Assembly (NCBI GenBank): GCA_035294085.1
Contig: DATGLP010000011.1
Coordinates: forward strand, 1 to 48,594
From: Acidimicrobiales bacterium
Lineage (GTDB): Bacteria > Actinomycetota > Acidimicrobiia > Acidimicrobiales > Bog-793
DNA: 48,594 bases
Direction: 5' to 3'
Shown here: positions 3,297-46,499 of the stretch, in pieces
Position numbering within the stretch: the stretch's first letter is position 1
How the letters are laid out: each line of letters opens with the position of its first letter
Translations under genes and position numbers: made by a program
Notes under the pieces: model-generated
Told to the model about the DNA's origin: nothing
Database searches by the model: none
Seen by the model: the letters and a program-made list of their open reading frames with translations, nothing else

Positions 3297-4315
3297 TACC
3301 GACGGCGAGCGTGCCGGAGGTGCTGGCTCGGGCGCGCGGCCTCGTCGGCCCCGCGCTGCGGCGGGCCGTCGCGACGCTCTCGCCCGAGCTGCGCCCCCTC
3401 GCCGAGTACCACCTCGGCTGGCGCGACGCGTCGGGCGACGCCGTCGAGAGCGACGGCGGGAAGGGGATCCGGCCGGCGCTCGCCGTCCTGTCCGCCGAGG
3501 CGGTGGGCGCGCCGGGGGAGGTCGGCGTGCCCGGCGCCGTCGCGGTCGAGCTCGTCCACAACTTCTCGCTCATCCACGACGACGTGATCGACGAGGACGC
3601 GGAGCGTCGGCATCGCCCCACGGTGTGGGCGCTCTTCGGCGTCGGGCAGGCGGTGATCGTCGGCGACGCCCTCATCGCGCTCGCCCAGCAGGTCGTGCTC
3701 GGTCCCGACGCGGCGGCCGGCGCCGGGCGCGCCGCGCGCTGCCTCGCCGACGCCACGGCGGCGATGATCGCGGGCCAGGCGCTCGACATGGCCTTCGAGA
3801 CGGTGCCGGCGATCGACGTGGCAGGGTGCCTCGCGATGGAGGCCGGCAAGACCGGCGCCCTCCTCGGCTGCGCCGCCTCCCTCGGCGCGATCCTCGCCGG
3901 CGCGCCCGCCGAGACCGTCTCGGCCCTCGACCGCTACGGCGTCGAGCTCGGCCTCGCCTTCCAGGCGGTCGACGACCTGCTCGGCATCTGGGGCGACCCC
4001 GCCGTGACGGGCAAGCCTGCCTGGAGCGACCTGCGTCAGCGGAAGAAGACCCTCCCGGTCGTGGCGGCCCTCGCGGCCGGCGGGGCGCGCGCCGAGGAGC
4101 TCGCCGCCCTGCTGGCGAGCGAGCACCTCGAGGAGGCGCAGGTCGCCCGCGCGGCCCAGCTGGTCGAGGCCTGCGGCGGGCGGTCCGCCGCGACCGCCGA
4201 GGCGCGCCGCCGGCTCGACGCCGCCCTCGGCGCGCTCGGGGAGGTCGCCCTCGTCGAGCGGACGCGCGCCGAGCTCACCGAGCTGGCGCGCTTCGTCGTG
4301 GAGCGGGAGTTCTGA
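3293..4315 (+). CDS. Polyprenyl (farnesyl/geranylgeranyl-type) diphosphate synthase
   Basis: A 340-residue trans-polyprenyl synthase. The first aspartate-rich motif is DDVID at residues 96-100, preceded by VHNFSLIH. The second, D-D-L-L-G-I-W-G-D, starts at residue 227. A GKGIRPAL motif at the isopentenyl diphosphate site lies upstream. Between hpnE and the cyclase gene, its likely job is to make the farnesyl diphosphate that HpnD/HpnC consume. Chain length cannot be fixed from sequence alone, so a geranylgeranyl product remains possible. It starts at GTG 3293, inside the hpnE stop, and ends in a TGATG junction with the cyclase. Confidence 0.88.
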   Translation: MIPTASVPEVLARARGLVGPALRRAVATLSPELRPLAEYHLGWRDASGDAVESDGGKGIRPALAVLSAEAVGAPGEVGVPGAVAVELVHNFSLIHDDVIDEDAERRHRPTVWALFGVGQAVIVGDALIALAQQVVLGPDAAAGAGRAARCLADATAAMIAGQALDMAFETVPAIDVAGCLAMEAGKTGALLGCAASLGAILAGAPAETVSALDRYGVELGLAFQAVDDLLGIWGDPAVTGKPAWSDLRQRKKTLPVVAALAAGGARAEELAALLASEHLEEAQVARAAQLVEACGGRSAATAEARRRLDAALGALGEVALVERTRAELTELARFVVEREF

Positions 4316-6300
4316 TGCGCGCGGCCCGGTCGTCCGCCGAGACCCCCCTCGACGCCGCCGCGCTCGCCGACGCGACGCGACGCGCGCGCGAGCACCTCCT
4401 CTCGCTCCAGTCGGCGCAGGGCTGGTGGAAGGGCGAGCTCGAGACGAACGTCACGATGGACGCTGAGGACCTCCTGCTGCGCGAGTTCCTCGGCGTGCGC
4501 AGCGACGACGACACGGCGGCCGCCGCGCGCTGGATCCGCTCGCACCAGCGCGAGGACGGGACCTGGGCGACCTTCTACGGGGGGCCGGGCGACCTGTCGA
4601 CGACGGTCGAGGCGTACGTGGCGCTGCGGCTGGCAGGCGACGATCCCGGCGCTGCCCACATGGCGAGGGCCGCAGCCTTCGTGCGCGAGCGCGGGGGGCT
4701 CGAGGCGAGCCGCGTGTTCACCCGCCTGTGGCTCGCCCTGTTCGGGTGGTACCCGTGGGAGGAGCTCCCCGCGATCCCTCCCGAGGTGGTGCTCCTGCCG
4801 AGCTGGTTCCCCTTCTCGATCTACGAGTTCGGCTGCTGGGCCCGCCAGACGGTCGTCGCCCTCACGATCGTCGCCGCCTACCGGCCGGTGCGGGCAGCGC
4901 CCTTCGCCCTCGACGAGCTGCGCACGAACCGGCGCCCGCCCGCGGCGCGGCCCGGACTGCGCACCTGGAAGGAGCGGTTCGTGCTCCTGGACCGCCTGCT
5001 GCACGGCTACGAGCACCTCGCTCGGCGCACCCCGCTGCGCCAGACCCTGCGGGCCGCGTCGCTCGCCGCCGCCGAGCGGTGGGTGGTGCGCCGCCAGGAG
5101 GCCGACGGCAGCTGGGGCGGGATCCAGCCGCCGTGGGTGTACTCGATCCTCGCCCTCCACCTGCGGGGCTACCCGCTCGACCACCCGGTGCTCGCGAGGG
5201 CCTTCGAGGGCCTCGAGCGCTTCTTGGTCCGCAAGGACGGGATGCGCTGGCTCGAGGCGTGCCAGTCCCCCGTGTGGGACACCGCGCTCGCCCTCATCGC
5301 CCTCACCGACGCGGGCGTGCCGCCCGAGGACGAGCGACTGGGTCGCGCCGCGTCGTGGCTCCTCGCCGAGGAGGTGCGCCACCGGGGCGACTGGGCCCTC
5401 CGGCGGCCCCACGTGCCGACCGGGGGGTGGGCCTTCGAGTTCGCCAACGACAACTACCCCGACGTCGACGACACCGCCGAGGTCGTCATGGCGCTGCGCC
5501 GGGTGCCCGCGCCCGACCGGGAGGCGACGGAGGCGGCGATCCGCCGAGGCGTCGCGTGGGTCGAGGGGATGGTCTCCGCCGACGGGGCGTGGGGAGCCTT
5601 CGACGCCGACAACGACCTCGAGATCCTCTACGAGCTCCCCTTCTGTGACTTCGGGGCGGTCATCGACCCGCCGAGCGCGGACGTCACCGCGCACGTCGTC
5701 GAGATGCTGGCGGCCGAGCCAGCTGCCGATCCCGAGCTGCTCCGGCGGGGGGTCGACTGGCTGGTCGCCCACCAGGAGGACGACGGCGCCTGGTTCGGCC
5801 GCTGGGGCGTGAACTACGTCTACGGCACCGGCGCGGCGGTGCCGGCCCTCGTGCGCGCCGGGATTCGCCCCGACCACCCGGCCATCCGGCGCGCCGTCGC
5901 GTTCCTCGAGGCCCACCAGAACGAAGACGGCGGCTTCGGCGAGGACATCCGCTCCTACGACGACCCGTCGCTGCGCGCGACGGGCACCTCGACCGCCTCG
6001 CAGACCGCCTGGGCGCTGCTCGCCCTCGTCGCGGCGGGCGAGGCCGGCTCGCCGACCGCCCGTCGTGCAGCCGAGTTCCTCGTCTCGACCCAGCGCGAGG
6101 ACGGAACCTGGGACGAGCCCTTCTACACCGGGACCGGGTTCCCCGGCGACTTCTACCTCAACTACCACCTGTACCGGCTCGTCTTCCCGCTCAGCGCGCT
6201 CGGGCGACTGTGCCGCGCGCTCGGCGTGCCACTGGAGGCCGAGAGGCCAGGGCGGACCTCGGCCGGCGGGTTCGGCCGGCGCGAGGAGGCGGCGTCGTGA
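4315..6300 (+). CDS. shc: Squalene-hopene cyclase
   Basis: A 661-residue class II triterpene cyclase of normal family length. It protonates squalene and folds it to hopene/hopanol at the inner membrane face. The catalytic DXDD motif is DVDD at residues 383-386, followed by T-A-E. Several QW-type repeats are visible, including QREDGTWATF near the N-terminus, QEADGSWGG, HQNEDGGFGE and TQREDGTWDE near the C-terminus. The terminal G-F-P-G-D-F-Y-L-N-Y-H-L-Y-R block is typical of the family. The ATG at 4315 shares its A with the preceding TGA. This is the defining enzyme of the operon. Also called hpnF. Confidence 0.97.
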   Translation: MRAARSSAETPLDAAALADATRRAREHLLSLQSAQGWWKGELETNVTMDAEDLLLREFLGVRSDDDTAAAARWIRSHQREDGTWATFYGGPGDLSTTVEAYVALRLAGDDPGAAHMARAAAFVRERGGLEASRVFTRLWLALFGWYPWEELPAIPPEVVLLPSWFPFSIYEFGCWARQTVVALTIVAAYRPVRAAPFALDELRTNRRPPAARPGLRTWKERFVLLDRLLHGYEHLARRTPLRQTLRAASLAAAERWVVRRQEADGSWGGIQPPWVYSILALHLRGYPLDHPVLARAFEGLERFLVRKDGMRWLEACQSPVWDTALALIALTDAGVPPEDERLGRAASWLLAEEVRHRGDWALRRPHVPTGGWAFEFANDNYPDVDDTAEVVMALRRVPAPDREATEAAIRRGVAWVEGMVSADGAWGAFDADNDLEILYELPFCDFGAVIDPPSADVTAHVVEMLAAEPAADPELLRRGVDWLVAHQEDDGAWFGRWGVNYVYGTGAAVPALVRAGIRPDHPAIRRAVAFLEAHQNEDGGFGEDIRSYDDPSLRATGTSTASQTAWALLALVAAGEAGSPTARRAAEFLVSTQREDGTWDEPFYTGTGFPGDFYLNYHLYRLVFPLSALGRLCRALGVPLEAERPGRTSAGGFGRREEAAS

Positions 6301-6917
6301 GCCGTCCCCTCTTCCTCACCCCCCTGCGCCTCGAGGCGCGCGCCGTGCGGCGGGGCGCTCCGGAGGCCGAGATCGTCCAGATCGGCATGGGCCCGGTGCG
6401 CGCCACTGCGGCCCGGGCTCGCGTCACCGCTGCGCACGAGGCCGGCCGGCCCATCCTGCTCCTCGGCTTCGGCGGCGCACTCGCGAGCTCGCTCGCGCCG
6501 GGCGACCTCGTGGTCGCGACCTCGCTCGGCTCGATCGACACGGACGAGCGCGTCGAGCTGCCCGCCGGCGAGGAGGCGGCCGCGACGCTCGAGGCGGCCG
6601 GCATCTCCGCGCGCCTCGCCCCGATCGTGTCCTCCGCCGTGCTCGTGCGCGGCCTCGAGGCTCGGCAGCGGGCGGCGGCGAGCGGTGCGGCGGTGGTCGA
6701 CATGGAGTCGCTGTGGTGCGCGCCGCTGGTGAGGCGGCATCGCTTCGCTGTCGTGCGCGCGGTCGTGGACGTGCCCGGTGCCGAGGTGCGCTCGCTCGCC
6801 ACGCCCGCTGCCGCGTGGAGGGCGTACCGCTCGCTCGCGAGAGCGGCGCGCGCGCTCGCCGAGTGGTCCCCGAGTACCGTCGACGAGCGTCGGCTCCAGG
6901 AGGTCGGTGATACCTGA
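6297..6917 (+). CDS. hpnG: HpnG, hopanoid-associated nucleoside phosphorylase
   Basis: A 206-residue protein of the nucleoside phosphorylase/MTA-SAH nucleosidase fold. The glycine-rich LLLGFGGAL segment and VVDMESLW (the M-E-S of nucleoside phosphorylases) are present. In hopanoid pathways HpnG removes adenine from adenosylhopane to give ribosylhopane. It therefore acts after HpnH even though it lies upstream of it. GTG 6297 overlaps the cyclase TGA, and its TGA overlaps the hpnH ATG (TGATG). The short length is normal for HpnG. Confidence 0.9.
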   Translation: MSRPLFLTPLRLEARAVRRGAPEAEIVQIGMGPVRATAARARVTAAHEAGRPILLLGFGGALASSLAPGDLVVATSLGSIDTDERVELPAGEEAAATLEAAGISARLAPIVSSAVLVRGLEARQRAAASGAAVVDMESLWCAPLVRRHRFAVVRAVVDVPGAEVRSLATPAAAWRAYRSLARAARALAEWSPSTVDERRLQEVGDT

Positions 6918-7924
6918 TGGGCATCCCACTACGCCAGAACCTGCGCATGGCCGCCTACCTCATGAAGCAGCGGCTGCGTGGCATCGAGAAGTACCCGCTC
7001 ATCGTCGAGCTCGAGCCGCTGTTCGTGTGCAACCTCGCCTGTCCCGGGTGCGGGAAGATTCAGTACCCGACGGAGGTCCTCCGCCGCCGGCTCACGCCCG
7101 AGGAGGCCTTCGCCGCGATCGAGGAGAGCGGCGCGCCGATGGTCTCCGTCGCGGGAGGCGAGCCCCTCCTGCACCCGCAGATCGAGGAGATCGTCTCCGG
7201 CCTGATCGCCCGCAAGCGCTTCGTGTACCTGTGCACGAATGCCGTCCTGCTGCGCCGCAAGCTGGACAGGTTCCGGCCGTCGCCGTACTTCTCGTGGGTC
7301 GTGCACCTCGACGGCCTGAAGGAGCGCCACGACCAGGCGGTGGACCGACCGGGGGTGTTCGAGGAAGCCGTGGCGGCGATCCGCGAGGCGAAGGCCCGCG
7401 GCTTCCGGGTCACGACGAACTCGACGTTCTTCTCCACAGACTCGCCGAAGACCGTGCGGGAGGTGCTCGACTTCTTGAACGACGAGCTCGAGGTCGACGC
7501 GATGATGATCTCGCCGGCCTACGCCTACGAGAAGGCCCCCGACCAGGAGCACTTCCTCGGAGTGGCCCAGACGCGCCAGCTGTTCAAGGAGGCGTTCGCC
7601 GAGGGCCGGCGCAGGAGGTGGCGGCTCAACCACACGCCGCTGTTCCTCGACTTCCTCGAGGGGAAGGTCGACTACGAGTGCACGCCGTGGGGCATTCCGA
7701 GCTACTCGATCTTCGGCTGGCAGCGCCCTTGCTACCTCATGGCCGACGGCTACGCGAAGACGTACAAGGAGCTCATCGAGACGACCGACTGGGAGAAGTA
7801 CGGACGGGGACGAGACCCGCGCTGCGACAACTGCATGGCGCACTGCGGCTACGAGCCCTCGGCCGTGGCGGCGACCACGAGGTCGCTTCGCGAGTCCCTG
7901 CGCGCCGCCTTCGGGACGCACTAG
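6917..7924 (+). CDS. hpnH: HpnH, radical SAM adenosyl-hopene transferase
   Basis: A 335-residue radical SAM enzyme. The [4Fe-4S] cysteines C38, C42 and C45 lie in F-V-C-N-L-A-C-P-G-C-G-K, followed by the VAGGEPLLHP region. C-terminal cysteines (RCDNCMAHCGYEPSA) form the HpnH-specific tail. HpnH joins the 5'-deoxyadenosyl group to hopene, the first step to extended hopanoids. This is the last gene of the coupled operon, ending at TAG 7922-7924. No aminotransferase or glycosyltransferase for hopanoid head groups follows, so the series here stops at ribosylhopane unless other loci contribute. Confidence 0.95.
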   Translation: MGIPLRQNLRMAAYLMKQRLRGIEKYPLIVELEPLFVCNLACPGCGKIQYPTEVLRRRLTPEEAFAAIEESGAPMVSVAGGEPLLHPQIEEIVSGLIARKRFVYLCTNAVLLRRKLDRFRPSPYFSWVVHLDGLKERHDQAVDRPGVFEEAVAAIREAKARGFRVTTNSTFFSTDSPKTVREVLDFLNDELEVDAMMISPAYAYEKAPDQEHFLGVAQTRQLFKEAFAEGRRRRWRLNHTPLFLDFLEGKVDYECTPWGIPSYSIFGWQRPCYLMADGYAKTYKELIETTDWEKYGRGRDPRCDNCMAHCGYEPSAVAATTRSLRESLRAAFGTH

Positions 7925-7992
7925 CGCCGATCGGCCACCGCAACGAGCGCTTCGGCCGACGATCGCGGCGTGACGCGTAGGCTGGGGCCGCC

Positions 7993-8067
<75 letters not shown>

Positions 8068-8080
8068 GTAAAAACGCAGG

Positions 8081-8997
8081 TCAGCGGCTCGCGAACGGCT
8101 GGTGACGAGCGCTGCGGAGGGTAGATGTCAGCCGTTTGTCAGCGTCTCGGCTGAACAGGCTCGCCGACAGCTGCTCGCCGGCCCGATGCCCCGTGGACAG
8201 GGTCACGTGCTGGTAGATCGCCATGGCGATGCTCGGGCTCGCGTCGCCAGTCAGCTCGCTCACCACCTTCGCCGGGACGGCTGCGGCGAGAATCAGCGAG
8301 CACGCGGTGTGGCGCGTGTCGTGCAGGCGGTTCGGTCGCAGGCCCGCCTCTCGCACGAGCGCCCGGAAGCGGTCGGTGAAGGTATCCGGATGGAGCGGGC
8401 GGCCCAGCCCGTCGGCGAAGACGTAATCCGTACCCTCTCGGCGCCGCCAGCAAGCGATCCTCCGCTTGCTGGCGGCGCCGGGCGCGAAGGAGCGAGACGA
8501 GGTGGGCGTCCAGGGGCCCAGGCGCTGGCTGGTCGCGGTCTTGGGCGTCGTCTCGAGTGTCGCCCCCTTCACCGTGACGCGGGCCCGCGTGACGCCGGGC
8601 TCGCCGGGGTCGAGGTCGATCTAGTCCCAGCACAAGCCCGCCGCCCCGTCCCGGCGCATCGGGCGCGAGAGGAAGAGGGCCCAGGCCGCCCCGAGGGGTC
8701 GCCCCGGACGTAGTCGAGGAAGCGGTGCGCTTCGTCGGGGTTCCATGACGCCGTCGGCGTTTGCGAGCGCCGAGGGGCGGCGACGGCCGCAAGGGGATCG
8801 CGGGCGAGCAGGCCGTTCGCGTCGCCCAGCGCGTGGCCGTCTCGAGCACGACGACGGCGGCCTGCGCGGTGCGAGACGAGACTCCGGCGCAGCCCTTCGC
8901 GCTCGTGACCCGTCCCCCCCTTGTTGGCCACCCGCTCTTGGAGCTGTAGCTGCTGTCGGTGGAGCCGCTGCTCGACGAACTGGATCGGGCTGATCAA
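8081..8997 (-). pseudogene. Tyrosine recombinase (phage-type integrase), degraded
   Basis: Minus-strand remains of an integrase reading toward tRNA-Ala. The C-terminal catalytic part is clear in one frame (8081-8572): RLHDTRHTACSLILAA gives the H-x-x-R box, and AIYQHVT carries the nucleophile tyrosine. Upstream pieces lie in other frames: SWNPDEAHRFLDYV and ALFLSRPMRRDGAAGLCWD, the latter ending at an in-frame TAG before IDLDPG. At least one frameshift and one nonsense codon break the gene. The N-terminal DNA-binding part is missing where the IS3 remnant begins. Position beside the tRNA 3' end fits its former role of integrating the island there. Confidence 0.85.
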
Positions 8998-9038
8998 GCC
9001 GTGAGCACGGTGGGGCGCTACACGTCATCGGCGATCGG

Positions 9039-10070
9039 TCAGTCTTCGGTGGCGACGTTGGCCTCGACCAAGCTGTCGAGCTGCTGGGCGTTCAGGAGCT
9101 CGTCGCGCATCGTGGCGTTGAACGACTCGATCCAGGCGTTCTGCCAGGGTGAGCCCAGATCGATCGAGACGGTGCCGGCGCCGGTGCACGAGCAGCAGTC
9201 GGCGACAGCCTAGGCGATGCACTCGCCGCTGTGGTCCAAGCGCAGGTACCTCGGGGTGGCGCGTTCCACGGCGGTTCTCTCGAGCACGGCGACGACCTGG
9301 TCGGCGTCGATGAAGCGTGGAACCTCCGTGGCGAGCGCCTCACGCCTGAACTCGTCGACGACGTTCAGGAACGTGAGCATGCTCCCGCCTGCGGTCTGGT
9401 CGAACGGGAGGTCACACGCCCCCGCCACGTCAGGGGCGATCGGACAGAACGCGCCGATGGCCACGCCGATGCCCTGAAGCGGTCGCCTCGTCTTCCGGTA
9501 GGGCACGCTCAGGCCTCCTTTCCCGCCACAGGCGCTGGACGCGCTCGCGATTCGCCCGCCAGCCGGCCTCCTTGGCCGGCAGATCGGCCCGGCGCCAGCC
9601 TCTGCGGGGTCGCCGGCGGGCGACGGCGCGCAGGAACGCCCGCAGCGAGCTCCTCGTCGCTCGGGATCGCTGCGGGGAGGCGCTGGGTGGACCCGGGCTG
9701 GCCAACGGCGAGACAGGCCTGGCGTCCGGCGGCCCCGAACTGCTCGCGGAGGTCCACGACGGCCCCCACCTGCGGTTCGGGGTCACGGACTTCCCCGGTT
9801 CAGCTCCTTCAACGTCGATGTCGAGGGCCTGGTCGGCCACGACGCGCTTCAGGCGGGCGTTCTCGCGCTCGACCTCCTCGAGCTCGATGCGTTTGGCGTC
9901 GTCGGCCTGCATCCCGCCGTCCTGGTTCCGCCAGCAGTGGAAGGTCGACTCGGTGACCTCGAGGTGCGGGGACACCTCCTCGACGGTTCTGCCCTGGGCG
10001 AGGAGCTTGTCGGCCTCGGCGGGCTTGCGGACGATCTGCTCGGGCGTGTGCCAGCGGCGTTTCGTCGTGT
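9039..10070 (-). pseudogene. IS3-family insertion sequence (orfA/orfB), degraded
   Basis: Reading on the minus strand from about 10070, the orfA part has RRWHTPEQIVRKPAEADK and HLEVTESTFHCWRNQ, then a leucine-zipper-like run ending RLKRVVADQALDID. The orfB parts follow in different frames: WRRADLPAKEAGWRANRERV, CDLPFDQTAGG, LTFLNVVDEFRREALA, and GSPWQNAWIESFNATMRDEL with the catalytic glutamate region. A TAG falls between HSGECIA and AVADC. The final TGA is at 9039-9041. The orfA frame has no usable start. Several frameshifts make it non-functional. The type of orfA resembles the IS407-like group. Terminal repeats could not be placed. Confidence 0.85.
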
Positions 10071-10319
10071 GCTGTCATCCTTCTCCCATCGTGGGGGCTC
10101 GGACTCGCACAACGGGTGGATCGATTCACGGGGATTCGGTCACTCGCGCTGCGCATGAAGGTCACCAAGGCGTCCACGTCCGCCGGCGTGAGCGCACTAG
10201 CAGCGAGCGCTCGCCTCCACCGAGATTCTCGCCATCAGCATGCATGAGCGTGTGGATTTGACCGGAAGGTGCTGCTAGACCTCTATGCGAGTACGTCTCT
10301 CGGCGGGACAGGAGAGGCT

Positions 10320-11624
10320 ATGACTCGTCAGACGGACGGCCTAGGAATGCTCAGCGCGGGCCAACTGGTCTCGGGAAGGTACGAGGTCCAAAGGCGTATC
10401 TCCGAAGGCGAACGTAGGAGAACGTACCTGGCCTACGACAACAAGATGCGAAGGCCCGTTGCCCTTTCAGTGCTGAGACCGGAATGTGCTCATCTCGACC
10501 CCGAAGGTGTCGAGCGAGAAGGCACGGTGCTAGGACGAGTCGGGACTCACGACAACATCGTCTCCGTATTCGACTTCGATCGAGACGGCTCAGTGCAGTT
10601 TGTCGTGTTCGAGTACCTAGGAGGCGGAACCCTCGCTGAACTTATCATCAGGGAGGGTTCATTACCACCGGAACAACTCCTCCGGCTGAGTCGTCAGGTA
10701 TGTCGTGGGCTGGCTCACCTCCACAACAAGGGTCTCCTCCATCGAGATGTCTGCGCAAAGAACGTCCTTCTAGACGAACGAGGAAATGCCCATCTCGGTG
10801 ACTTCGATTCAGCTATCTGGTTAGACGACCCGGACCCGGATCTCCCGAGCACGCCGAATCCTTACTCAGCACCGGAGTCGAAGGGGATGCGCGCTTCGCG
10901 AGATCGTCGTTCTGACCTCTATTCGCTCGGTTGCCTTCTCTACGTGATGGCGCTCGGGACAGTCGAGGTCGGAGGTCTTCGTCAGCTTCGCGAGGCGCGG
11001 CGGGATCTTCCTTCTTCCTTCGCAGACTTGGTTGAGTGCCTGCTCGCTGACGATCCGGATGGGCGTCCGGATGATGCCGATCAAGTTCTGCGCTGGCTCG
11101 ACGACATCCGAAAGGCCTCCAATCTGGATGCACTTATCCGCGCTGGGGAGAGTCAGCAGGTCGAGTTCAAAGCCTCGCTGCACCACCCCTATGGCAGCGT
11201 ACCATCGGCGGGTGCAGAAGAAGGAATGAGACGCAAACTGTGGCTTGAGGTCACCAAGACCATCGCCGCGTTTCTGAACAGCGATGGAGGAATCCTCCTC
11301 ATCGGAGTTGATGACCAGGGACGCATCCTCGGAGTCGAATCAGACCTTCCATACGTTAAGAAACACACGCTGGACTCTTGGCTGCTTTCACTGCAGCAGG
11401 TTATTGTTAACGATCTTGGCACAGATGTGTTCAGCTCGATCCGCATTTCGCTCGTCCCTCACGGGGACGTCCACGTAGCCGTTATATCTTGTCCGAAACG
11501 GTCTGTTGAGACGTGGTTAGGTACGACAGGGCATGAGGCGTTCTACGTGCGCGCTGGGAACGGGACGCGTGAGCTTACAGGATCCAGGCTTATTACGTAT
11601 ATCCGCGAACATTTTCATTCATAG
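10320..11624 (+). CDS. Protein kinase-like domain fused to a Schlafen AlbA_2 domain
   Basis: An intact 434-residue protein. Residues about 21-262 have a Ser/Thr kinase fold: H-R-D at 141-143, N148, D-F-D at 161-163 in place of DFG, and A-P-E at 184-186. The glycine loop (ISEGERRRTYLA) keeps one glycine, and the usual VAxK lysine is Ser50 (VALSVL), so it may be a pseudokinase or an atypical kinase. Residues about 272-424 are an AlbA_2 (Schlafen-type nucleic-acid-binding) domain with GES...EFKAS, GGILLIGVDDQG and FYVRAGNGTREL. The start ATG 10320 has AGGAG five bases upstream. GC content is clearly lower than in the flanking genes, and IS remnants lie on both sides, indicating transfer. A role in defence or stress signalling is inference. 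No membrane segment is visible. Confidence 0.85.
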   Translation: MTRQTDGLGMLSAGQLVSGRYEVQRRISEGERRRTYLAYDNKMRRPVALSVLRPECAHLDPEGVEREGTVLGRVGTHDNIVSVFDFDRDGSVQFVVFEYLGGGTLAELIIREGSLPPEQLLRLSRQVCRGLAHLHNKGLLHRDVCAKNVLLDERGNAHLGDFDSAIWLDDPDPDLPSTPNPYSAPESKGMRASRDRRSDLYSLGCLLYVMALGTVEVGGLRQLREARRDLPSSFADLVECLLADDPDGRPDDADQVLRWLDDIRKASNLDALIRAGESQQVEFKASLHHPYGSVPSAGAEEGMRRKLWLEVTKTIAAFLNSDGGILLIGVDDQGRILGVESDLPYVKKHTLDSWLLSLQQVIVNDLGTDVFSSIRISLVPHGDVHVAVISCPKRSVETWLGTTGHEAFYVRAGNGTRELTGSRLITYIREHFHS

Positions 11625-11631
11625 CTTTGCT

Positions 11632-11647
11632 TGGGAGTCGGCTCCCA
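11632..11647 (+). terminator. Hairpin just after the kinase-AlbA_2 gene
   Basis: TGGGAG-TCGG-CTCCCA, a perfect 6-bp stem with a 4-nt loop, starts 8 bases after the stop codon. It has no downstream T-run, so intrinsic termination would be weak. Position supports a terminator or an mRNA 3'-end stabiliser. Confidence 0.4.
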
Positions 11648-11759
11648 GACTTGACCCGAGCAGGAGCGCGACCGGACTGCGACGTAGGCGTCGCCGGAGC
11701 GCGTGGCGGGAGTGGCGGCCGCACACCCCGCCCGTTCGGGAGTGGCGGGAGAAGGGAGC

Positions 11760-12840
11760 CCCAGACGGAAGAGGAGACGGACGGGGAAAGGTCCCGAGGA
11801 GTGGATCCTCCAGCAGCTGATCGAGGCCGAGGCCACGGAACGGATCGGCGCCGGCCGCTACGAGCGCTCCGAGGACCGCGTCACCCAGCGCAACGGCTAC
11901 CGCCGGCGCCTGCTGTCCACCCCCGCCGGGGACGTGCAGCTCGGGATCCCGAAGCTTCGCGAGGAAGCTTCTTCCCGAGCCTCATCGCCCGGCGTGGGCG
12001 CATCGACCGGGTCCTGTTCGCCGTGCTCAGCGAGGCCGACGTCCCGGGAGTCTCGGCGAGGACGGTCGACCACCTGGTGGCCGCGCACGGGGTGGCCTCG
12101 GGGATCTCCACGTCCGAGGTGAGCCGGATCTGTGCAGGCCTCGACAAAGAGCTCGAGGAGTCCCGAGACCGCCCGTTGGACTACGTGCGGTTCCCGCCGT
12201 CTTCGCCGACGCGGCCGACGTGGAGGGCCGAGTCCGAGGCCGGGTGGTCTCGAGGCCCGTCGTGGTGGCAACCAGTGTCACCGTCCGCGGCGAGCAGGAG
12301 GTGCTCGGCATCGAGGTGGGAGACACCGAGGACCCGGCCTTCTCGGGGGCCCCCTCGAGGGCCTGCGGGCTCGGGAACTGGGGGGTCCAGCTCTGATCTC
12401 CTGCCACCACCTGGGACTCAAGGAGGCCATCGCCTCGGTCCTCCTCGGGGTGTCCTGGCAAGGATGTCGGGGGCACTCCATGAGAGACATGCTCTCGAGG
12501 GTTCCGAAGGCCTCGGCCGAGATGGTCGCTGCCGCCAGCTTGACGAGGTCACCCAGACGCTCTGGCGAGGATGCCCGCCGATGCCGCTTCGGACCTGCTC
12601 GCATTCACCAGCTTCCCAGAGGTCCACGAGCGCAGGATCGGGTTGACCAACCCGTCGGCACGTCTGAACGGCGAGATCGAGCGGCGGACCAACGTGGTGG
12701 GCATCTTCCCCAACGACGCGGCAGGCGCTCGCCTCGTCACCGCCGTCGTGGTCGAGTTCCACGACGAGTGGGCCGTCGTCGAACGCCGCGTCCTGTGGGA
12801 GGAGTCTCCGGAGATGATCGGCGTGATGCAAGGGCCACCG
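11760..12840 (+). pseudogene. IS256-family (mutator type) transposase, degraded
   Basis: Pieces of one transposase lie in all three plus frames. In order they are: ILQQLIEAEATERIGAGRYE, RNGYRRRLLSTPAGDVQLGI with PKLREEA, FFPSLIARRGRIDRVLFAVL, GISTSEVSRICAGLDKELEE, a damaged catalytic core around HHLGLKEAIASVLLG, and the C-terminal TNPSARLNGEIERRTNVVGI with FPNDAAGARLV and HDEWAV. These match the ordered conserved blocks of IS256 transposases. At least three frameshifts separate them, so it is inactive. It closes the island on the side away from tRNA-Ala. Confidence 0.85.
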
Positions 12841-12973
12841 CTCACCGCCAGAGCTTGCAAGGCACTCGCGTTCACGGCGCTACACACTGATGCAGGCGGC
12901 GAGGTCCAGACCGGAACCGAAACGACACCACTGCGCGGGTGCACCCCGGCGGCAGCGAGCGACGCCCGCTCCG

Positions 12974-14200
12974 CTACGCGGCGCCGTTGTCCCGACGGAA
13001 CAGTCCCCGTCGAGCGGCGTGCGTCGAGCCGGACGTGTCTCGCTCCGACGAGGAGTCGAACGGGAGGCCGTCGAAGACGCGCGCGAGCGGCTCGCTGGCC
13101 AACGCAGGAAGGTCGGCCCGATCCTCGTCGGTCGCCGTCTCGGCGTGTGCCGGGGGTCCGGGCACGGAGTCGGCACCCGCGGCGTCGCGCGCCTCCTCGA
13201 GCTCGGAGAGGCCCACCGCGATGGACCGCACCTCGTCCACGAGGCGACCCAACGCATCGAGGCAGGGCGCCGGCGGATCGGGGCGCTGCTCGAGCCGGAG
13301 CAGCGTCTCGCGCACCGCCGCAGTCGCCTGCGCAATCTGGTCGGTCCCCTCCTCGAGGTGCTCAAGCTGCATGCGGACGCTGCCGAGCTCCTCGGCGAGC
13401 CGGCCGAACGCGTCGAGCGACGGCGCAGGCTGGCGCGCGACGCCCTCGAGCGTCTGGAGGCGCAGCCCGAGGGCCCGCACCTCGTCGACGAGCCGAGACA
13501 GCGCTGCATCCGGCAGCCCGCGAGGTGTCGAGAACACGTCGGAGCTGCGAACGAGGTCGATGACCGCGCGCGTCGCCTCAGCGAGCTGACTCGTTCCCTG
13601 CTCCAGGCCATCCAGGCGCGCGCCGAGGGTGCGCAGCTCCTCGGAGAGGGAGGTGAGCGTGGCGCTGAGCACCGACACGCCCTCGACCTGCTCGCTCGCC
13701 TGCGTCGCGCCCGGTGAGGCGGCGTCGCGCTGGTGCGAGCCGCTTCGCAGCGCGAGCGCGTGGGCCAGGGATGCGAGCGCATCGGACGCCGGGCCGACTC
13801 CCTCCGGCGATCTGTACGGGGTGGCCGCGCCGTCGAGCTCGAGGGCCCGCAGTCGCTGCTCGATCTCCGCGACCCACTCGGCGAGGCCGAGAAGCCCCTG
13901 CGCGAGCAGCTCGTCGCGTGGCGGGTCGCTGCCGGCAGCGCGCGGGACCGGTGGCGAGGCCTGCAGGTCCTCGAGTTCGGCTGGGGGAGCGACTCCCCAC
14001 GCCGGCGCCGTCGCCAGCCGAGGTGCCGAGCCGTAGGCTCCCTCGCGGCGCGCCAGCCTCGCCTCGAGCGCGGCGATCCGGTGGAGCACCCGACTGAGGG
14101 GGTCGTCGAGACGGGCGTCCCGCTGGCCGGTGTCGAGCCTCGCCTCGAGCGCGGCGATCCGGTGGAGGACGTCAGCGAGCCTCTTGTCCACCTGCGTCAC
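12974..14200 (-). CDS. Predicted coiled-coil protein, function unknown
   Basis: A 408-residue protein on the minus strand, not matched to a named family. From the chosen GTG start (14200) it begins VTQVDKRLADVLHRIAALEA. A second copy of VLHRIAALEARL follows 27 residues later. The middle and C-terminal parts repeat heptad-like segments such as LSEELRTLGARLDGLEQG, VDEVRALGLRLQTLEG, LAEELGSVRMQLEHLEEG and VDEVRSIAVGLSELEEA. This indicates long helical coiled coils with no signal peptide or membrane segment. An open frame extends 48 codons upstream, but a WhiG/FliA-like promoter at 14252-14279 lies inside that extension, which favours the GTG. It is divergent from the Tad operon, so a scaffold or regulatory role in the pilus machine is a guess from context. 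Confidence 0.65.
   Translation of the reverse strand: MTQVDKRLADVLHRIAALEARLDTGQRDARLDDPLSRVLHRIAALEARLARREGAYGSAPRLATAPAWGVAPPAELEDLQASPPVPRAAGSDPPRDELLAQGLLGLAEWVAEIEQRLRALELDGAATPYRSPEGVGPASDALASLAHALALRSGSHQRDAASPGATQASEQVEGVSVLSATLTSLSEELRTLGARLDGLEQGTSQLAEATRAVIDLVRSSDVFSTPRGLPDAALSRLVDEVRALGLRLQTLEGVARQPAPSLDAFGRLAEELGSVRMQLEHLEEGTDQIAQATAAVRETLLRLEQRPDPPAPCLDALGRLVDEVRSIAVGLSELEEARDAAGADSVPGPPAHAETATDEDRADLPALASEPLARVFDGLPFDSSSERDTSGSTHAARRGLFRRDNGAA
14056..14167. repeat. Two direct 31-bp repeats within the coiled-coil gene
   Basis: The same 31 bases occur at 14056-14086 and 14137-14167, 81 bp apart (27 codons). They encode the duplicated HRIAALEARL segment near the protein's N-terminus. 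The near-perfect nucleotide identity suggests a recent internal duplication or gene conversion. Confidence 0.85.
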
Positions 14201-14251
14201 TCCCCGCCGGCCCGAGCGCTGGCGCTCGCCGACACCGGCGAGCTGTCTGTG

Positions 14252-14279
14252 TAGTCGGCACCTGGCGAGGCGACCTTTA
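14252..14279 (-). promoter_or_regulatory. WhiG/FliA-type promoter for the coiled-coil gene
   Basis: On the minus strand the sequence reads TAAA (14279-14276), 16 nt, then GCCGACTA (14259-14252). The known WhiG/FliA consensus is TAAA - 15 or 16 nt - GCCGATAA, so this has a perfect -35 and 6 of 8 in the -10. Expected transcription start is near 14245, about 45 nt before GTG 14200. AT-rich tetramers are rare in this DNA, which makes the match more telling. Confidence 0.55.
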
Positions 14280-14356
14280 GGGTCTGGATACGGGCGGCCT
14301 GGGGAGGCTCGCCGAGGAGGCGGGACCTGGTCCGGCGCGAGCAACCATCCCGAGCC

Positions 14357-14384
14357 TTAACGGGCTCATTCCTGCTGTCGATAC
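14357..14384 (+). promoter_or_regulatory. WhiG/FliA-type promoter for the Tad pilus operon
   Basis: TTAA (14357-14360), 16 nt, then GTCGATAC (14377-14384). It matches the consensus at 3 of 4 and 6 of 8 positions with the same spacing as the divergent site. Expected start of transcription is near 14391, about 100 nt before the cpaB GTG at 14492. The -35 tetramer also lies in a small inverted repeat (GAGCC...GGCTC). Confidence 0.5.
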
Positions 14385-14491
14385 CACAGCGATGGCCACG
14401 ACGGTTGCCGTGTCTCTGGGGCGCCGCGGCGGCTGGCCGAGCGGGCAGCTACCCGCTCGTCTCGGCTGCCGCCGCCACTGAAGGAGCAGCG

Positions 14492-15262
14492 GTGCGGCGG
14501 AGGCGAGCGCTCGTCGTCGTACTCGCGCTCGCGATCGGTGGCCTCGCCGGGGGCGCGGCCTACCTCTACCTGCAAGGCGTGCAGGTGCGTGCCTACGACG
14601 GCGCGCATCTCGTCGACGTCTACGTCGCGAACGGCACGATCCCGCGCGGTACGACGGGAGCGGACGCCATCGGGTCGGGGTTGATCCAGTCGACCAAGAT
14701 GCCGCTGCGTCTCCGCCCTCCCGGTGCGGTGACGACGCTCGCCAGCATTCGCGACGCCGTCGCGGTCACCGACATCCCTCCGCAGCAGGTGATCGTCGCC
14801 GGCCTGTTCGCCCAGCCAGCCACCCAGGCCGGCGCGGCGGCCCAGCTGATCCCGAAGGGCGACGTCGCCATCACGATCTCCACCGACGCGGTGCACGGCG
14901 TCGCGGGCCTCGTCGAGCCAGGCGACCACGTCGACCTCCTCGTGCAGCTCGACGACGGCGCCAAGGAGGCGTTCCTCTACCAGGAGGTGCCCGTGCTCGC
15001 CGTCGGGAGCGCGCTCGCCGAGCCGGCCGTGCACACCACCTCGGCGCAGGCTGCGAGCCCCGGTTCGCAGGCCCCAGCGACCGAGCTCGTCACCTTCGCC
15101 GTCCCACCCGCGGCAGCAGCGCGCATCGCCATGGCCGAGAGCGACGCAGGTGGGATCTCCGGCAGCATCTACCTGGCGCTCGACCCCCCGGGTGGCGTGC
15201 CCGCCGCCGTGCCGCCCGTCTCCAGCGCGAGTGTGCTCCCGCCGGGCCTGACGCCTCGCTAG
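14492..15262 (+). CDS. cpaB: CpaB/RcpC-family Flp pilus assembly protein
   Basis: A 256-residue protein with an N-terminal membrane anchor (RRRRALVVVLALAIGGLAGG). A SAF-like domain follows (VYVANGTIPRGTTGADAIGS and the AVAVTDIPPQQVIVAGLF region), then the CpaB core (PKGDVAITISTDAVHGVAGL, VEPGDHVDLLV). CpaB proteins sit at the outer face of the Tad machine and interact with the secretion channel or cell wall. The GTG at 14492 has AAGGAG five bases upstream. An in-frame extension upstream to 14405 has no ribosome site. It is the first gene of the tad operon, 13 bp before tadZ. Confidence 0.85.
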   Translation: MRRRRALVVVLALAIGGLAGGAAYLYLQGVQVRAYDGAHLVDVYVANGTIPRGTTGADAIGSGLIQSTKMPLRLRPPGAVTTLASIRDAVAVTDIPPQQVIVAGLFAQPATQAGAAAQLIPKGDVAITISTDAVHGVAGLVEPGDHVDLLVQLDDGAKEAFLYQEVPVLAVGSALAEPAVHTTSAQAASPGSQAPATELVTFAVPPAAAARIAMAESDAGGISGSIYLALDPPGGVPAAVPPVSSASVLPPGLTPR

Positions 15263-15275
15263 GCAAGGCGATGAC

Positions 15276-16508
15276 GTGACCGCGAGCGCCGATCGCCTCC
15301 CGCCGCTCCTCGGCCCCCCGCTCGAGGCGCCAGGCCCGCTCGTCGCCGTCGTCGAGCGCGAGCCGGAGGTGCGTCGTCGCATCCGCGACGCGCTGCCCGG
15401 CGCCGACGTCATGGCGCTGTCGTCGCTCGACGAGCTCGTGGACGTCGGGCTGCAGCGCGTGTCGGTGATCGTCGTGGTGCTCGGACCGTCCCAGGTCGAA
15501 CCGGGCCCTCTCCAGCGCTTCGGATCGCTCGCGCGGCTGCGATCCGGCCTCGGCGGGATCCTCGTCGTCGAGACCGTCGGTCCGGAGGTGATGGGGATGG
15601 CGCTTCGCGCCGGGCTCGACGACGCCATCGCCGTGCAGAACCTCGACTCCCAGCTGCTCTCGGCGGTGCAGGCCCTCGGCCAGCGGCTCGACGAGGACGT
15701 CGCCGGGATCGTGCAGCTGCGCCAGCTCAACAGGGCGACCGAGTCTCGCGGCCGGGTGACGACCGTCTTCTCGCCGAAGGGCGGCGTGGGCAAGTCCGTC
15801 GTCGCGGTCAACCTCGCCGCGGCGCTCGCCCGTCGGTCGCCGGAGCCGGTGGTGGTCCTCGACCTCGATCTCCAGTTCGGCGATGTTGCCGTGATGGTGC
15901 GGCTGCAGCCGGCCCACAACGTCACCGAGGTCGTCGCCGCCGAGCGCGCCGAGCGCATCGACGGCGAGCTGGTGCACAGCCTCCTCGTTCGCCACCCTTC
16001 GAGCGGCGTGTTCGTCCTCGCGGCGCCCCCCGAGCCGTCGCTCGTCGACAGCGTGGACGCGAAGGTCGTCTCACGGCTCGTGGCCGTCCTGCGCTCGATG
16101 GCGTCGCGGGTGGTCGTGGACACACCGTCCGTCCTCAGTGACGCCATCTTGCAGGTCCTCGATGACTCCGACGACATCGCGTTCGTCGTCGGGATGGACG
16201 TTCCGTCGGTGAAGAACGCGCGCATCGGCCTGCACGCGCTCCGGCTGGTCGGCATCGACGAGCGCCGGATCCTCCTCGTCCTCAACCGTGCCGACTCCAA
16301 GGTGAACCTCTCCGTCCGAGACGTCGAGCGAGCGCTCAGGATGAAGGTCGCGGTGAGCCTCCCGTCCGACGTGCTCGTCACGCAGTCGGTCAACAAGGGG
16401 ATTCCCGCGGTCCTCGAGTACGAGCGCTCTGGCTTCGCCCGCGCCATCGACCAGCTCGTCGAAGTCGTGCGCGGCCGCTCGGGTGCTGCCGTCGAGAGGG
16501 AGGCGTGA
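15276..16508 (+). CDS. tadZ: TadZ/CpaE-like pilus localisation ATPase
   Basis: A 410-residue protein with two parts. Residues about 20-140 resemble a degenerate response-regulator receiver domain (LVAVVEREPEVRRRIRDALP). Residues about 160-400 are a ParA/MinD ATPase. The deviant Walker A motif SPKGGVGKS is near residues 166-174, and VVVLDLDLQFGDVAVM follows. TadZ proteins place the Tad machine at its site in the cell, often a pole, and recruit other Tad proteins. It starts at GTG 15276 and ends one base before the tadA GTG at 16510. Confidence 0.88.
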   Translation: MTASADRLPPLLGPPLEAPGPLVAVVEREPEVRRRIRDALPGADVMALSSLDELVDVGLQRVSVIVVVLGPSQVEPGPLQRFGSLARLRSGLGGILVVETVGPEVMGMALRAGLDDAIAVQNLDSQLLSAVQALGQRLDEDVAGIVQLRQLNRATESRGRVTTVFSPKGGVGKSVVAVNLAAALARRSPEPVVVLDLDLQFGDVAVMVRLQPAHNVTEVVAAERAERIDGELVHSLLVRHPSSGVFVLAAPPEPSLVDSVDAKVVSRLVAVLRSMASRVVVDTPSVLSDAILQVLDDSDDIAFVVGMDVPSVKNARIGLHALRLVGIDERRILLVLNRADSKVNLSVRDVERALRMKVAVSLPSDVLVTQSVNKGIPAVLEYERSGFARAIDQLVEVVRGRSGAAVEREA

Positions 16509-16509
16509 G

Positions 16510-17859
16510 GTGAGCCTGTTCGAGCGCCTCCGCGACGGCCAGGTGCCGAGCGCGCTGCGGACGGAGCAGCTGGAGGCGTTGCGTCGGCGGATCCACCAGC
16601 GGGTGATCGCCGAGCTCGGGCCGCAGCTCTCGGACGCGGGCTCGGACGACGGCGAGCTCGGACCCGCCGTGCAGCAGCTGCTCAACCAGGCGCTGCGAGA
16701 GGAGGCGACACCCCTCTCTGGCGCTGACAAGCAGCAGCTCGTCCGGGACCTCACCGACGACATCCTCGGGCACGGGCCCATCGAGCCCTACCTGCGCGAC
16801 CAGAGCGTGAGCGAGATCATGGTGAACGGTCCTCGCCTCGTGTACGTCGAGCGTGCCGGGCGCCTGGAGCTGACGGGCGTCACCTTCATCGACGAGGAGC
16901 ACCTCCGTCGCACGATCGAGCGGATCGTCTCGCTCGTCGGTCGGCGCATCGACGAGTCCTCGCCGATGGTCGATGCTCGTCTCCCGGACGGGTCGCGCGT
17001 GAACGCCGTCTACCCGCCGCTCGCGATCGGGGGACCCTTCCTCACGGTCCGCAAGTTCATGGCCGAGCCGCTGTCGGTCGACGACCTCTTCGAGCTGAGG
17101 ACGGCGACCCCTGCGTCGATGGCATTCCTCGAGGCCTGCGTGAAGGGCCGGATGAACATCGCGATCTCCGGCGGGACGAGCACCGGGAAGACGACCCTCC
17201 TCAACGTGCTCTCGTCGTTCATCCCCGACACCGAACGGATCGTGACCATCGAGGACTCCAAGGAGCTCCAGCTCCGCCAGCGCCACGTGCTGCCGCTCGA
17301 GGCGCGCCCGCCGAACTCCGAGGGACGCGGCGAGGTCAGCATCCGGCAGCTCGTGCGCAACGCGCTGCGCATGCGGCCGGACCGGATCGTTGTCGGGGAG
17401 TGCCGGTCGGGTGAGGCCCTCGACATGCTCCAGGCGATGAACACGGGCCACGAGGGCTCGCTCACGACGGTGCACGCGAACAGTCCTCGCGATGCGCTGT
17501 CGCGCATCGAGACGATGACCTTGATGGCCGGCTTCGACCTCCCCGTGCGAGCGATACGCGAGCAGATGGCCTCGGCCCTGGACGTCATCGTCCAGCTGAG
17601 TCGCCTGCGAGACGGGAGCCGCAGGATCACGCACATCACCGAGGTGGAGCGGATGGAGGGCGACGTCATCGTCCTCCAGGACGTCTTCCTCTTCGACTAC
17701 GGCATGGGTCTCGACGGCGACGGGCGTCCCCGCGGGCAGCTCAAGGCGACGGGCCTGCGACCGCATCTCGTGGAGCGGCTGGCCGATCGCGGGATCGCGC
17801 TCGCGCCGGGTCTGTTCGACTCCGAGGGTTTCGTACGCGCGCCGGTGGGTCGGCGGTGA
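16510..17859 (+). CDS. tadA: TadA/CpaF-family secretion ATPase
   Basis: A 449-residue PilT/VirB11-type ATPase that powers Flp pilus assembly at the cytoplasmic membrane. Walker A (SGGTSTGKTT) is at about residues 220-229. The Asp box lies in RIVTIEDSKELQL and Walker B in RPDRIVVGECRSGEALDMLQ near 291. The His box TTVHANSPRDAL follows. The N-terminal domain carries the EPYLRDQSVSEIMVNGP segment typical of CpaF. Start GTG 16510; an open frame begins further upstream but overlaps tadZ. Its stop overlaps the tadB start by 4 bases. Confidence 0.93.
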   Translation: MSLFERLRDGQVPSALRTEQLEALRRRIHQRVIAELGPQLSDAGSDDGELGPAVQQLLNQALREEATPLSGADKQQLVRDLTDDILGHGPIEPYLRDQSVSEIMVNGPRLVYVERAGRLELTGVTFIDEEHLRRTIERIVSLVGRRIDESSPMVDARLPDGSRVNAVYPPLAIGGPFLTVRKFMAEPLSVDDLFELRTATPASMAFLEACVKGRMNIAISGGTSTGKTTLLNVLSSFIPDTERIVTIEDSKELQLRQRHVLPLEARPPNSEGRGEVSIRQLVRNALRMRPDRIVVGECRSGEALDMLQAMNTGHEGSLTTVHANSPRDALSRIETMTLMAGFDLPVRAIREQMASALDVIVQLSRLRDGSRRITHITEVERMEGDVIVLQDVFLFDYGMGLDGDGRPRGQLKATGLRPHLVERLADRGIALAPGLFDSEGFVRAPVGRR

Positions 17860-18908
17860 GCGGCCCGGTCCGCCTCGTCGAGTCGTTCGCGGCGCGCGCC
17901 TACCTCGACGCGCGCAGCTGGCTCGGCCTCGCCGGCGGCCGCCTCGGACCGGCCGTCGTCGCCGCGTTGAGCGTGCTCGCTGCCGTGCTCGTCTCCTACG
18001 GCCTCGTGCACCTCCTCGCGCGCCCGACCGACGAGCTCGAGGAGGTCCTCCGCCCCTACCGGCTGCTTCCCGAGCAGGCGCCGAGGGGCCAGGGCGCGGG
18101 GCAGCTGACGCGCCCCGCCCTGGCGCACGTCGCCGCGCTGCTCGTGCGCATCGTCGAGTCGCGAGGGCTGCGCCCCGTCCTCGAGTCGAAGCTCGCGCGT
18201 GCCGCCGTCCCGCTGGACGTGGGCGAGTTCCTCCTCGTGTGCTCGGGAGCGGTCGTCGTGCTCGGAGGCCTCGGAGGGCTCCTCGCCGGCGTCGTGGGCC
18301 TCCTCGCCGGGATCGCGCTGGCCTGCGCCGCCCCCTTCGGCTTCCTCGAGGTCCGGGCCGGGCGTCGGCACCGTCTCTTCGAGGCGCAGCTCCCCGACGT
18401 CCTCAAGCTCGTTGCGAGCTCGCTGCGTGCCGGGTTCTCCCTGCTGCAGAGCCTCAACGGGGTTGCCGACCAGGTCGAGGACCCGATGCGCCAGGAGCTG
18501 CGCCTCGCGCTGTCGCGCTCGCGCCTCGGCGAGCCGCTCGAGGACGCGCTCGGCGGCGTCGCGGACGCGACCGGCAGCCGGGACTTCGCCTGGACCGTGA
18601 TGGCGATCCGGATCCAGCGCGAGGTGGGCGGGAACCTCGCCGAGGTCCTTGACACCGTCGCCGCGACGATGACCGAGCGCGCGCGGCTCCGGCGCGAGGT
18701 GCGCACCCTCACCGCGGAGGGACGGATCAGCGCGCTGATCCTCGCCGCACTCCCGGTGCTCCTCGGGGGGTTCATCTTCCTGGCGAACCGTCCGTACCTG
18801 GCGCTGCTCTTCACGACCGTTCCCGGCGAGCTCGCCCTCGTCGGCGGCCTCCTCCTCGAGGGCGTGGGGGCCTGGTGGATGCGCCGGACGATCCAGATCG
18901 AGGTGTGA
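17856..18908 (+). CDS. tadB: TadB-like inner-membrane platform protein
   Basis: A 350-residue type II secretion F-domain (GspF-like) membrane protein. It has an N-terminal membrane helix near residues 30-50 and a central membrane pair around VVVLGGLGGLLAGVVGLLAG. The conserved cytoplasmic part is LPDVLKLVASSLRAGFSLLQ, with GEPLEDALGGVADATG and QREVGGNLAEVLDTVAAT. Two helices follow at the C-terminus. TadB and TadC form the platform on which TadA acts. It overlaps tadA by 4 bases (GTGA), and tadC starts one base after its stop. Confidence 0.9.
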   Translation: MSGPVRLVESFAARAYLDARSWLGLAGGRLGPAVVAALSVLAAVLVSYGLVHLLARPTDELEEVLRPYRLLPEQAPRGQGAGQLTRPALAHVAALLVRIVESRGLRPVLESKLARAAVPLDVGEFLLVCSGAVVVLGGLGGLLAGVVGLLAGIALACAAPFGFLEVRAGRRHRLFEAQLPDVLKLVASSLRAGFSLLQSLNGVADQVEDPMRQELRLALSRSRLGEPLEDALGGVADATGSRDFAWTVMAIRIQREVGGNLAEVLDTVAATMTERARLRREVRTLTAEGRISALILAALPVLLGGFIFLANRPYLALLFTTVPGELALVGGLLLEGVGAWWMRRTIQIEV

Positions 18909-18909
18909 C

Positions 18910-19833
18910 GTGCTCGTCGGCACGTGCGCTGCAGCGACGCTCGCGGTCGCCCTGCTCGTGTGGGCGGCGAGCCTGCGCACGACCGAGCAGGCGGCGGTGC
19001 GTGCGACCCTGCGAGTCGCTCTCGACCCGGCCGTGGTCAAGCTGGCCTCGTCCGAGCGGAGCCACCCGGTTCCCTCGTTCGCCGAGCGCGTCGTCCTACC
19101 GCTGTGCTCCTGGCTCGCGAAGCTGGCGCTGCGCTTCACGCCCAAGGGCTACGTTGCCGCCGTCCGGCGACGCCTCGTCCTCGCGGGCAGCCCGCAGCCC
19201 GAGGCCCTCCAGCGCTTCCTCGGCGCGCGCGTCGCCACGCTGCTCGTCGCCCCGTTGCTCTTCCCGCTCGCCGCACTGGCGCCGCTGCGCGGTGGCTCGG
19301 CGACGCTGCTCGCACTCGGGGGCGCGGCGCTCCTCGTGCTCGCGCCGGAGGCGGTGCTGAACCGACGAGTCGCCCGCCGCCAGGAGCAGATCCGGCGCCA
19401 GCTCGCCGACATGATCGACCTTCTGACCATCGGCGTCGAGGCGGGCCTCGGCTTCGAGCAGGCCCTCAGCCGCACCGTCGTCGCCGTCCCCGGCCCGCTC
19501 GCCGAGGAGTTCGCTCGGCTCCTCGGCGAGACCCGCATCGGGGCGAACCGGCGGGAGTCGTTCGAGCGGCTCGTCGACCGCACCGACGTCCCCGAGCTGC
19601 GCTCGTTCGTCGTCGCGCTCGGCCAGGCGGAGTCGTTCGGCATCTCGATCGTCCAGATCCTGCGCTCGCAGTCGGTCGAGATCCGGACGGCTCGCCGCCA
19701 GCACGCGCAGGAGAAGGCGCAGAAGGCGCCGGTGAAGATGCTCTTCCCCCTCGTCTTCTGCATCATGCCCGCCCTGTTCGTCGTCGTCGTCGGGCCTGCC
19801 GCGATCGAGATCTTCCGGACCATCGTGAGGTGA
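18910..19833 (+). CDS. tadC: TadC-like inner-membrane platform protein
   Basis: A 307-residue GspF-type membrane protein, the partner of TadB. Visible family blocks are QIRRQLADMIDLLTIGVEAG with LGFEQALSR, and FVVALGQAESFGISIVQILR. The latter is followed by R-A-R-R-Q-H-A-Q-E-K-A-Q-K-A-P-V-K-M-L-F-type sequence and the C-terminal hydrophobic helix (VFCIMPALFVVVVGPAAIEI). The QEKAQKAPVKM...P motif is characteristic of TadC. Start is GTG 18910. TadE follows after 7 bp. Confidence 0.9.
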   Translation: MLVGTCAAATLAVALLVWAASLRTTEQAAVRATLRVALDPAVVKLASSERSHPVPSFAERVVLPLCSWLAKLALRFTPKGYVAAVRRRLVLAGSPQPEALQRFLGARVATLLVAPLLFPLAALAPLRGGSATLLALGGAALLVLAPEAVLNRRVARRQEQIRRQLADMIDLLTIGVEAGLGFEQALSRTVVAVPGPLAEEFARLLGETRIGANRRESFERLVDRTDVPELRSFVVALGQAESFGISIVQILRSQSVEIRTARRQHAQEKAQKAPVKMLFPLVFCIMPALFVVVVGPAAIEIFRTIVR

Positions 19834-46490: not shown

Positions 46491-46499
46491 CCTGGCCGG

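Follow-up and report, generated by a model that had tools for sequence, protein, structure and literature searches.

What might a small bacterial protein do in which an odd kinase is joined to a Schlafen AlbA_2 domain, and is it a working device or a leftover of a broken mobile island? The question is raised by one gene in a stretch of 48,594 nucleotides from an Acidimicrobiales bacterium (contig DATGLP010000011.1; the whole stretch is hereafter called the window). An earlier note on this DNA, made from its letters, had proposed a stand-alone sensor whose (pseudo)kinase part controls a nucleic-acid-binding or cleaving part, possibly against phage. Our analysis supports this proposal in part, through an intact Schlafen-type triad, relatives fused to defence proteins and a homologue in a restriction island; the pseudokinase component may not hold. 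Taking the comparisons and models below together, we judge it reasonably probable that the fusion is a self-contained, horizontally spread one-protein defence sensor-effector in which RNA cleavage would be under the control of the kinase domain.

The open reading frame (ORF) is free of stops over all 434 codons. Pfam placed a Pkinase match at residues 21-255 (E 4e-32, above the cut-off) and SLFN_AlbA_2 (PF04326) at residues 277-419 (E 3e-14, 54 bits against a cut-off of 25.3). AlphaFold2 modelled the whole protein with a predicted local distance difference test (pLDDT) score of 93.5 and a predicted template modelling (pTM) score of 0.84, and the AlbA_2 part alone with 92.4 and 0.89, respectively. 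The ORF, the Pfam matches and the high-confidence model thus agree with the earlier description of an intact 434-residue kinase-fold protein with a complete AlbA_2 domain; structure prediction, which had been proposed as a check, contained both domains, neither being absent. Every motif that had been read from the sequence is also present: Ser50, HRD, N148, DFD and A184-P185-E186 (APE) in the kinase part, and E282-F-K-A-S, GGILLIGVDDQG (323-334) and FYVRAGNGTREL (408-419) in the AlbA_2 part. A pTM of 0.84 for the whole protein hints that the halves pack against each other in a defined way; one could then gate the other. At window positions 11190-11220, an AlbA_2 loop lacks about 13 residues that are common to the full-length homologues.

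To which proteins is the AlbA_2 half most similar? Its model gave the best matches to DIP2311 (3lmm, Z 14.3) and to SAMD9 (Z 12.8, and 12.7 as the named tRNase domain). Schlafens scored between 7.1 and 10.0 (SLFN14 10.0, SLFN13 9.6), and the best other fold reached 5.0. A profile built from 25 related AlbA_2 domains matched SLFN14 (1.3e-10), SLFN11, SLFN12, SLFN13 and SLFN5. Residues E277, E282 and D332 align with the ES, the EFK and the second Asp of GVDD in SLFN14, where counting along the alignment makes them E206/E211/D249; this triad is invariant in all full-length members of the fusion family and at least 90% conserved in the 25 related domains. In SLFN13, mutation of any triad residue lowers RNase activity and mutation of either glutamate abolishes it (PMC5862951), and in SAMD9L, E198 and D243 are needed for the translation block and antiviral action (PMC11221667). 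The second AlbA_2-like lobe of the vertebrate Schlafen core is absent from the fusion, Pfam and the model both giving one AlbA_2 domain only. Elsewhere, a cut-off AlbA_2 frame that lacks the first motif (L078:3131-3907, G591:C15) is 44% identical to the window's domain and is probably a decayed relative.

The company kept by this domain in other proteins points to defence. We scanned 21 AlbA_2 proteins from the phylum whose domain is similar to the window's; in 17 of them it formed the C-terminus of a defence protein. These were HsdR-type type I restriction subunits (L018, L019, L021, L022, L026, L028, L029 and L034), GmrSD-like proteins (L007, L010, L014 and L015, some with weak GmrSD scores), BrxL proteins (L082, L011, L024 and L033) and one MTES_1575/AAA_12 protein, a ProA-like helicase-nuclease that matches the anti-phage ProA over the compared part (L009). 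Other BrxL proteins carry Lon-like or HKD domains at this end. In one contig (L082:1939-14348, G134:C4), the BrxL-AlbA_2 gene closes an operon of BrxB-BrxC-PglX-PglZ. Authors who also cite a preprint on anti-phage bacterial Schlafens assign Schlafen RNases a back-up effector role in BREX loci (PMC12839542). The recurrence of one AlbA_2 module on the ends of HsdR, BrxL, GmrSD and other proteins suggests that many defence systems have a back-up effector in common. For the fusion, the simplest account would be a defence protein that stands alone and combines an exchangeable front half with a half of the Schlafen/SAMD9 RNase type.

What kind of kinase, then, forms the front half in our case? The modelled domain superposes on PknB with Z 31.0 and a root-mean-square deviation of 1.6 over 242 residues. 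The VAIK lysine and the DFG of PknB-type kinases are both absent, VALS and DFD standing in their place throughout the fusion family; in the window, the HRDxK lysine is also lost and the glycine loop is poor. Because the Lys-to-Ser exchange, HRD, the Asn and DFD are common to four distinct versions, the odd kinase is conserved rather than decayed. In WNK1 the catalytic lysine has moved to Lys233 in the glycine loop, and a 2007 survey regarded WNK as the only functional eukaryotic-type kinase family without the strand-3 lysine (PMC1821047). The glycine loop, which the earlier note had called degenerate, is indeed poor, but it holds a basic residue at this position, on strand 2 as in WNK kinases: Arg in the fusions of the window and L076, Lys in those of L035 and L037 and in the L077 kinase. 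Among 43 distinct kinases, all 14 without the VAxK lysine had Lys or Arg there, as opposed to none of the 29 with it (Fisher test, p 1e-11, which does not gauge independent events). On the kinase tree, the kinases without the lysine (no-K) form two supported groups, one comprising the fusion family and L077, the other proteins that combine zinc-ribbon, kinase and AAA_16; the lysine exchange therefore had one or two origins. The replaced VAxK lysine and DFD speak for the label "(pseudo)kinase", but it may be mistaken, since the position of the WNK catalytic lysine is occupied by a basic residue. For the fusion kinase, activity, weak activity and a purely sensory role are all conceivable.

Members of both tree groups have features of their own. 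In the zinc-ribbon proteins (L050-L058), Ala or Gly replaces the VAxK lysine and the glycine loop contains Lys; some of them are shorter, without the ATPase. L077 encodes tandem kinases (3179-6432, G531:C74), a no-K kinase of the same clade as the fusion and an ordinary one; this MAD6-like protein scores under the MAD6 cut-off, and next to its gene the opposite strand encodes a SIR2-like protein.

Full-length homologues, obtained from a genome-contig scan and whole-genome searches, came from four metagenome-assembled genomes (L035, L036, L037 and L076/L048) and were 50-58% identical, with a value of about 60% also obtained for L076, the closest. The L036 and L037 genes are identical (G790 and L037 are one contig); with the window's included, there are four distinct full-length versions, from families f1, f6, f92 and f93 of a single actinobacterial order, where occurrence is patchy (4 of 397 sampled genomes). 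The rarity outside the window's phylum refers to one pattern-based genome-contig scan, which distant members would escape. Besides Ser50, HRD, N148, DFD and the AlbA_2 triad, the helix-C Glu67 is invariant across these versions. At L037, the type I restriction genes hsdR, hsdS and hsdM are followed directly by the kinase-AlbA_2 gene and then by an ImmA/IrrE-type gene and DUF4411. This hsdS gene has two nearly identical halves, and a TcmP gene, one for a rSAM_mob_pairA-like protein and small genes lie between hsdS and hsdM (L037:1676-13099).

In the window itself, the fusion is the one intact gene of a small, mostly broken island, with transposase pieces on both of its sides (Table 1). That the island is linked to a tRNA, as had been claimed, is confirmed by the tRNA-Ala at its left edge and by the remnants of integrase and transposases; a search of 7900-16500 for a repeated copy of the tRNA end, such as would mark the other border as an attachment site, found none. 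The GC content at third codon positions (GC3) is 0.60 in the fusion gene against roughly 0.8-0.95 in the majority of the window's other long ORFs. Because of this low GC3 and the broken integrase next to the tRNA, we conclude that the fusion gene is horizontally acquired. Compared with L076, its closest homologue, the gene differs at codon positions 1/2/3 by 0.33/0.22/0.63, and purifying selection has therefore kept the protein. Retention under selection amid broken mobile genes, previously suggested along with a distinct base composition, is thus borne out by the codon-position pattern, and the composition by GC3. Right beyond the island lie host Tad/Flp pilus assembly genes (14405-19833; RcpC/CpaB, ParA-type, T2SSE and two T2SSF), and farther on (45614-47944) tRNA-Asp and tRNA-Phe precede an intact frame for an IS110-family transposase.

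Table 1. Features of the fusion gene, its protein and the surrounding island, in window coordinates.
Feature	Position	Strand	Basis
tRNA-Ala (TGC), left edge of mobile island	7993..8067	+	ARAGORN, Rfam
Tyrosine recombinase (integrase), C-terminal fragment, broken	8081..8572	-	Pfam Phage_integrase 1.1e-11
Transposase fragments (rve core, HTH_Tnp_1), broken	9210..9975	-	Pfam; rve match under curated cut-off
Shine-Dalgarno-like AGGAGAGG, directly 5' of ATG	10310..10317	+	Sequence
Kinase-AlbA_2 fusion gene, 434 aa	10320..11624	+	ORF, Pfam, AlphaFold2
PknB-fold kinase domain of atypical Ser/Thr type (residues 21-255)	10380..11084	+	Pfam, structure comparison
Arg33, basic residue at WNK1 Lys233 glycine-loop position	10416..10418	+	Alignment
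Ser50 replacing VAxK lysine (VALS), invariant in family	10467..10469	+	Alignment
Catalytic loop H141-R142-D143 to N148 (HRDVCAKN)	10740..10763	+	Alignment
Metal-binding motif DFD, residues 161-163, replacing DFG	10800..10808	+	Alignment
C-terminal Schlafen AlbA_2 domain, residues 277-419	11148..11576	+	Pfam, structure comparison
Glu277 and Glu282, first two Schlafen-type triad residues	11148..11165	+	Alignments
Asp332, third Schlafen-type triad residue	11313..11315	+	Alignments
Mutator-family transposase, broken, right part of island	11703..12944	+	Pfam Transposase_mut, two separate frames

How could the two halves work together? RNA cleavage, the triggering signal, the activity or inactivity of the kinase and protection against phage are all points that we infer. 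In the explanation that we favour, the kinase part would sense infection by binding a nucleotide, by (auto)phosphorylation or by touching a phage product; sensing would alter its packing on the AlbA_2 part. The AlbA_2 part, once released, would cleave tRNA or rRNA, so that translation is halted and the infection aborted. Several observations weigh against this explanation. The triad alone is no proof of an RNase, because bacterial AlbA_2 domains frequently bear a DNA-binding annotation and the triad is widely conserved. In the window's version, catalysis may be impaired by Arg instead of Lys at position 33 and by DFD instead of DFG. The neighbours of homologues with the same architecture, proposed earlier as a check on the defence idea, gave a divided answer: a clear defence island, the type I restriction locus of L037, is present at only one of the four distinct loci, whereas in L035 the fusion gene adjoins and precedes def-fmt-rpe (genes named by sequence) and in L076 it stands near tRNA-Val amid metabolic genes. 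Viral contigs held no relatives when searched with either the protein query or alignment A1, and phage and plasmid collections returned kinase-part or partial matches only, none of them covering 80%.

Might the protein then be no defence effector at all? It could be a regulator whose AlbA_2 domain binds DNA or RNA without cutting it and whose kinase tunes the binding or phosphorylates partners, as would befit the DNA-binding role described for AlbA_2 in prokaryotic Argonaute (pAgo) proteins (PMC6299218), the DNA-bound SAMD9 structure in the PDB (7ksp) and the absence of defence neighbours at two of four loci. We consider this unlikely: most related AlbA_2 domains occur in fusions with restriction and BREX proteins, and a gene so rare within its order and of foreign composition is unlike one for a housekeeping regulator. 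Lower still is the probability of an addiction or toxin module that serves the carrying mobile element, with the kinase as built-in antitoxin and phage protection secondary or absent. The survival of an intact gene among integrase and transposase remnants would suit such a module, as would the ImmA/IrrE and DUF4411 genes that follow the L037 homologue; no conserved partner gene, however, travels with the fusion across the four loci, toxin and defence roles overlap, and the same AlbA_2 module on BrxL and GmrSD favours defence. Very improbable, finally, is a functionless orphan decaying in its broken island. Every neighbouring mobile gene is broken, and L078 is an example of decay in a related AlbA_2 gene, but the fusion gene retains a full-length frame, a ribosome-binding site, all conserved motifs and the codon pattern of purifying selection.

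A further alternative is a variant of the sensor-effector explanation, in which the kinase part is a pure pseudokinase scaffold without phosphotransfer and serves the AlbA_2 part only as a sensor that binds nucleotides or proteins. This is quite conceivable, though we lean somewhat against it. The Lys-to-Ser exchange, DFD, the loss of the HRDxK lysine and the poor glycine loop all argue for a pseudokinase in the window, and PglW has been described with an inactive kinase ahead of an active one (PMC12839542); D143, N148, D161 and helix-C E67 are invariant, however, and at the WNK position Lys is present in L077 and in half of the four distinct versions. In its most specific form, the sensor-effector explanation would make the fusion a bacterial antiviral system in one protein, in which a kinase with an independently moved, WNK-like lysine directly gates a SAMD9/Schlafen-type tRNase that elsewhere has interchangeable front ends (BrxL, GmrSD, HsdR, ProA-like); we offer this version tentatively and regard it as rather doubtful.

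If the sensor-effector explanation is true, a Schlafen/SAMD9-type RNase would be directly controlled by a kinase domain within one small bacterial protein, a compact model of AlbA_2 effector activation in animal antiviral proteins. The fusion also offers a bacterial test of kinase lysine relocation, as bacterial kinases show a WNK-like exchange.

Comparison with known systems places each half of the protein in a known family. Among defence kinases, the MADS kinase MAD6, a Ser/Thr kinase of a defence system, is the top NCBIfam model for the fusion, but the kinase part alone matches and the cut-off is missed (NF047741; 135.8 bits against 460); no genes for MADS partners were observed next to the fusion gene. 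PD-T4-6 and the BREX protein PglW are likewise defence-associated Ser/Thr kinases with strong domain-level matches and a different domain make-up. PglW (NF033442) reaches 56 bits against a cut-off of 990, and PD-T4-6 matches by its kinase domain alone (best E 1.9e-40, with no library cut-off and many related kinases scoring); these matches arise because the kinase fold is common to all. At the level of sequence, the fusion shares with eukaryotic WNK kinases the absence of the strand-3 lysine and the placement of a basic residue in the glycine loop (PMC1821047), and it differs from them in having DFD, Arg in the window version and a bacterial origin.

Bacterial Schlafens in defence have already been reported (PMC12839542 and the preprint cited there), and the effectors of BREX loci share with the fusion the prokaryotic Schlafen RNase superfamily and a tie to phage defence; unlike them, the fusion has an N-terminal Ser/Thr-type kinase. 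A literature search of partial coverage found no description of a kinase-AlbA_2 or BrxL-AlbA_2 fusion. SLFN11/12/13/14 have the same AlbA_2 fold and carboxylate triad, but they pair two lobes per chain, most with further domains, whereas the fusion has one lobe after its kinase. Although they have no kinase, carry other sensory domains and are only about 20% identical in sequence, the animal proteins SAMD9 and SAMD9L resemble the fusion in having a single AlbA_2 lobe of the same fold, with the E/E/D triad, as the effector within a larger antiviral protein.
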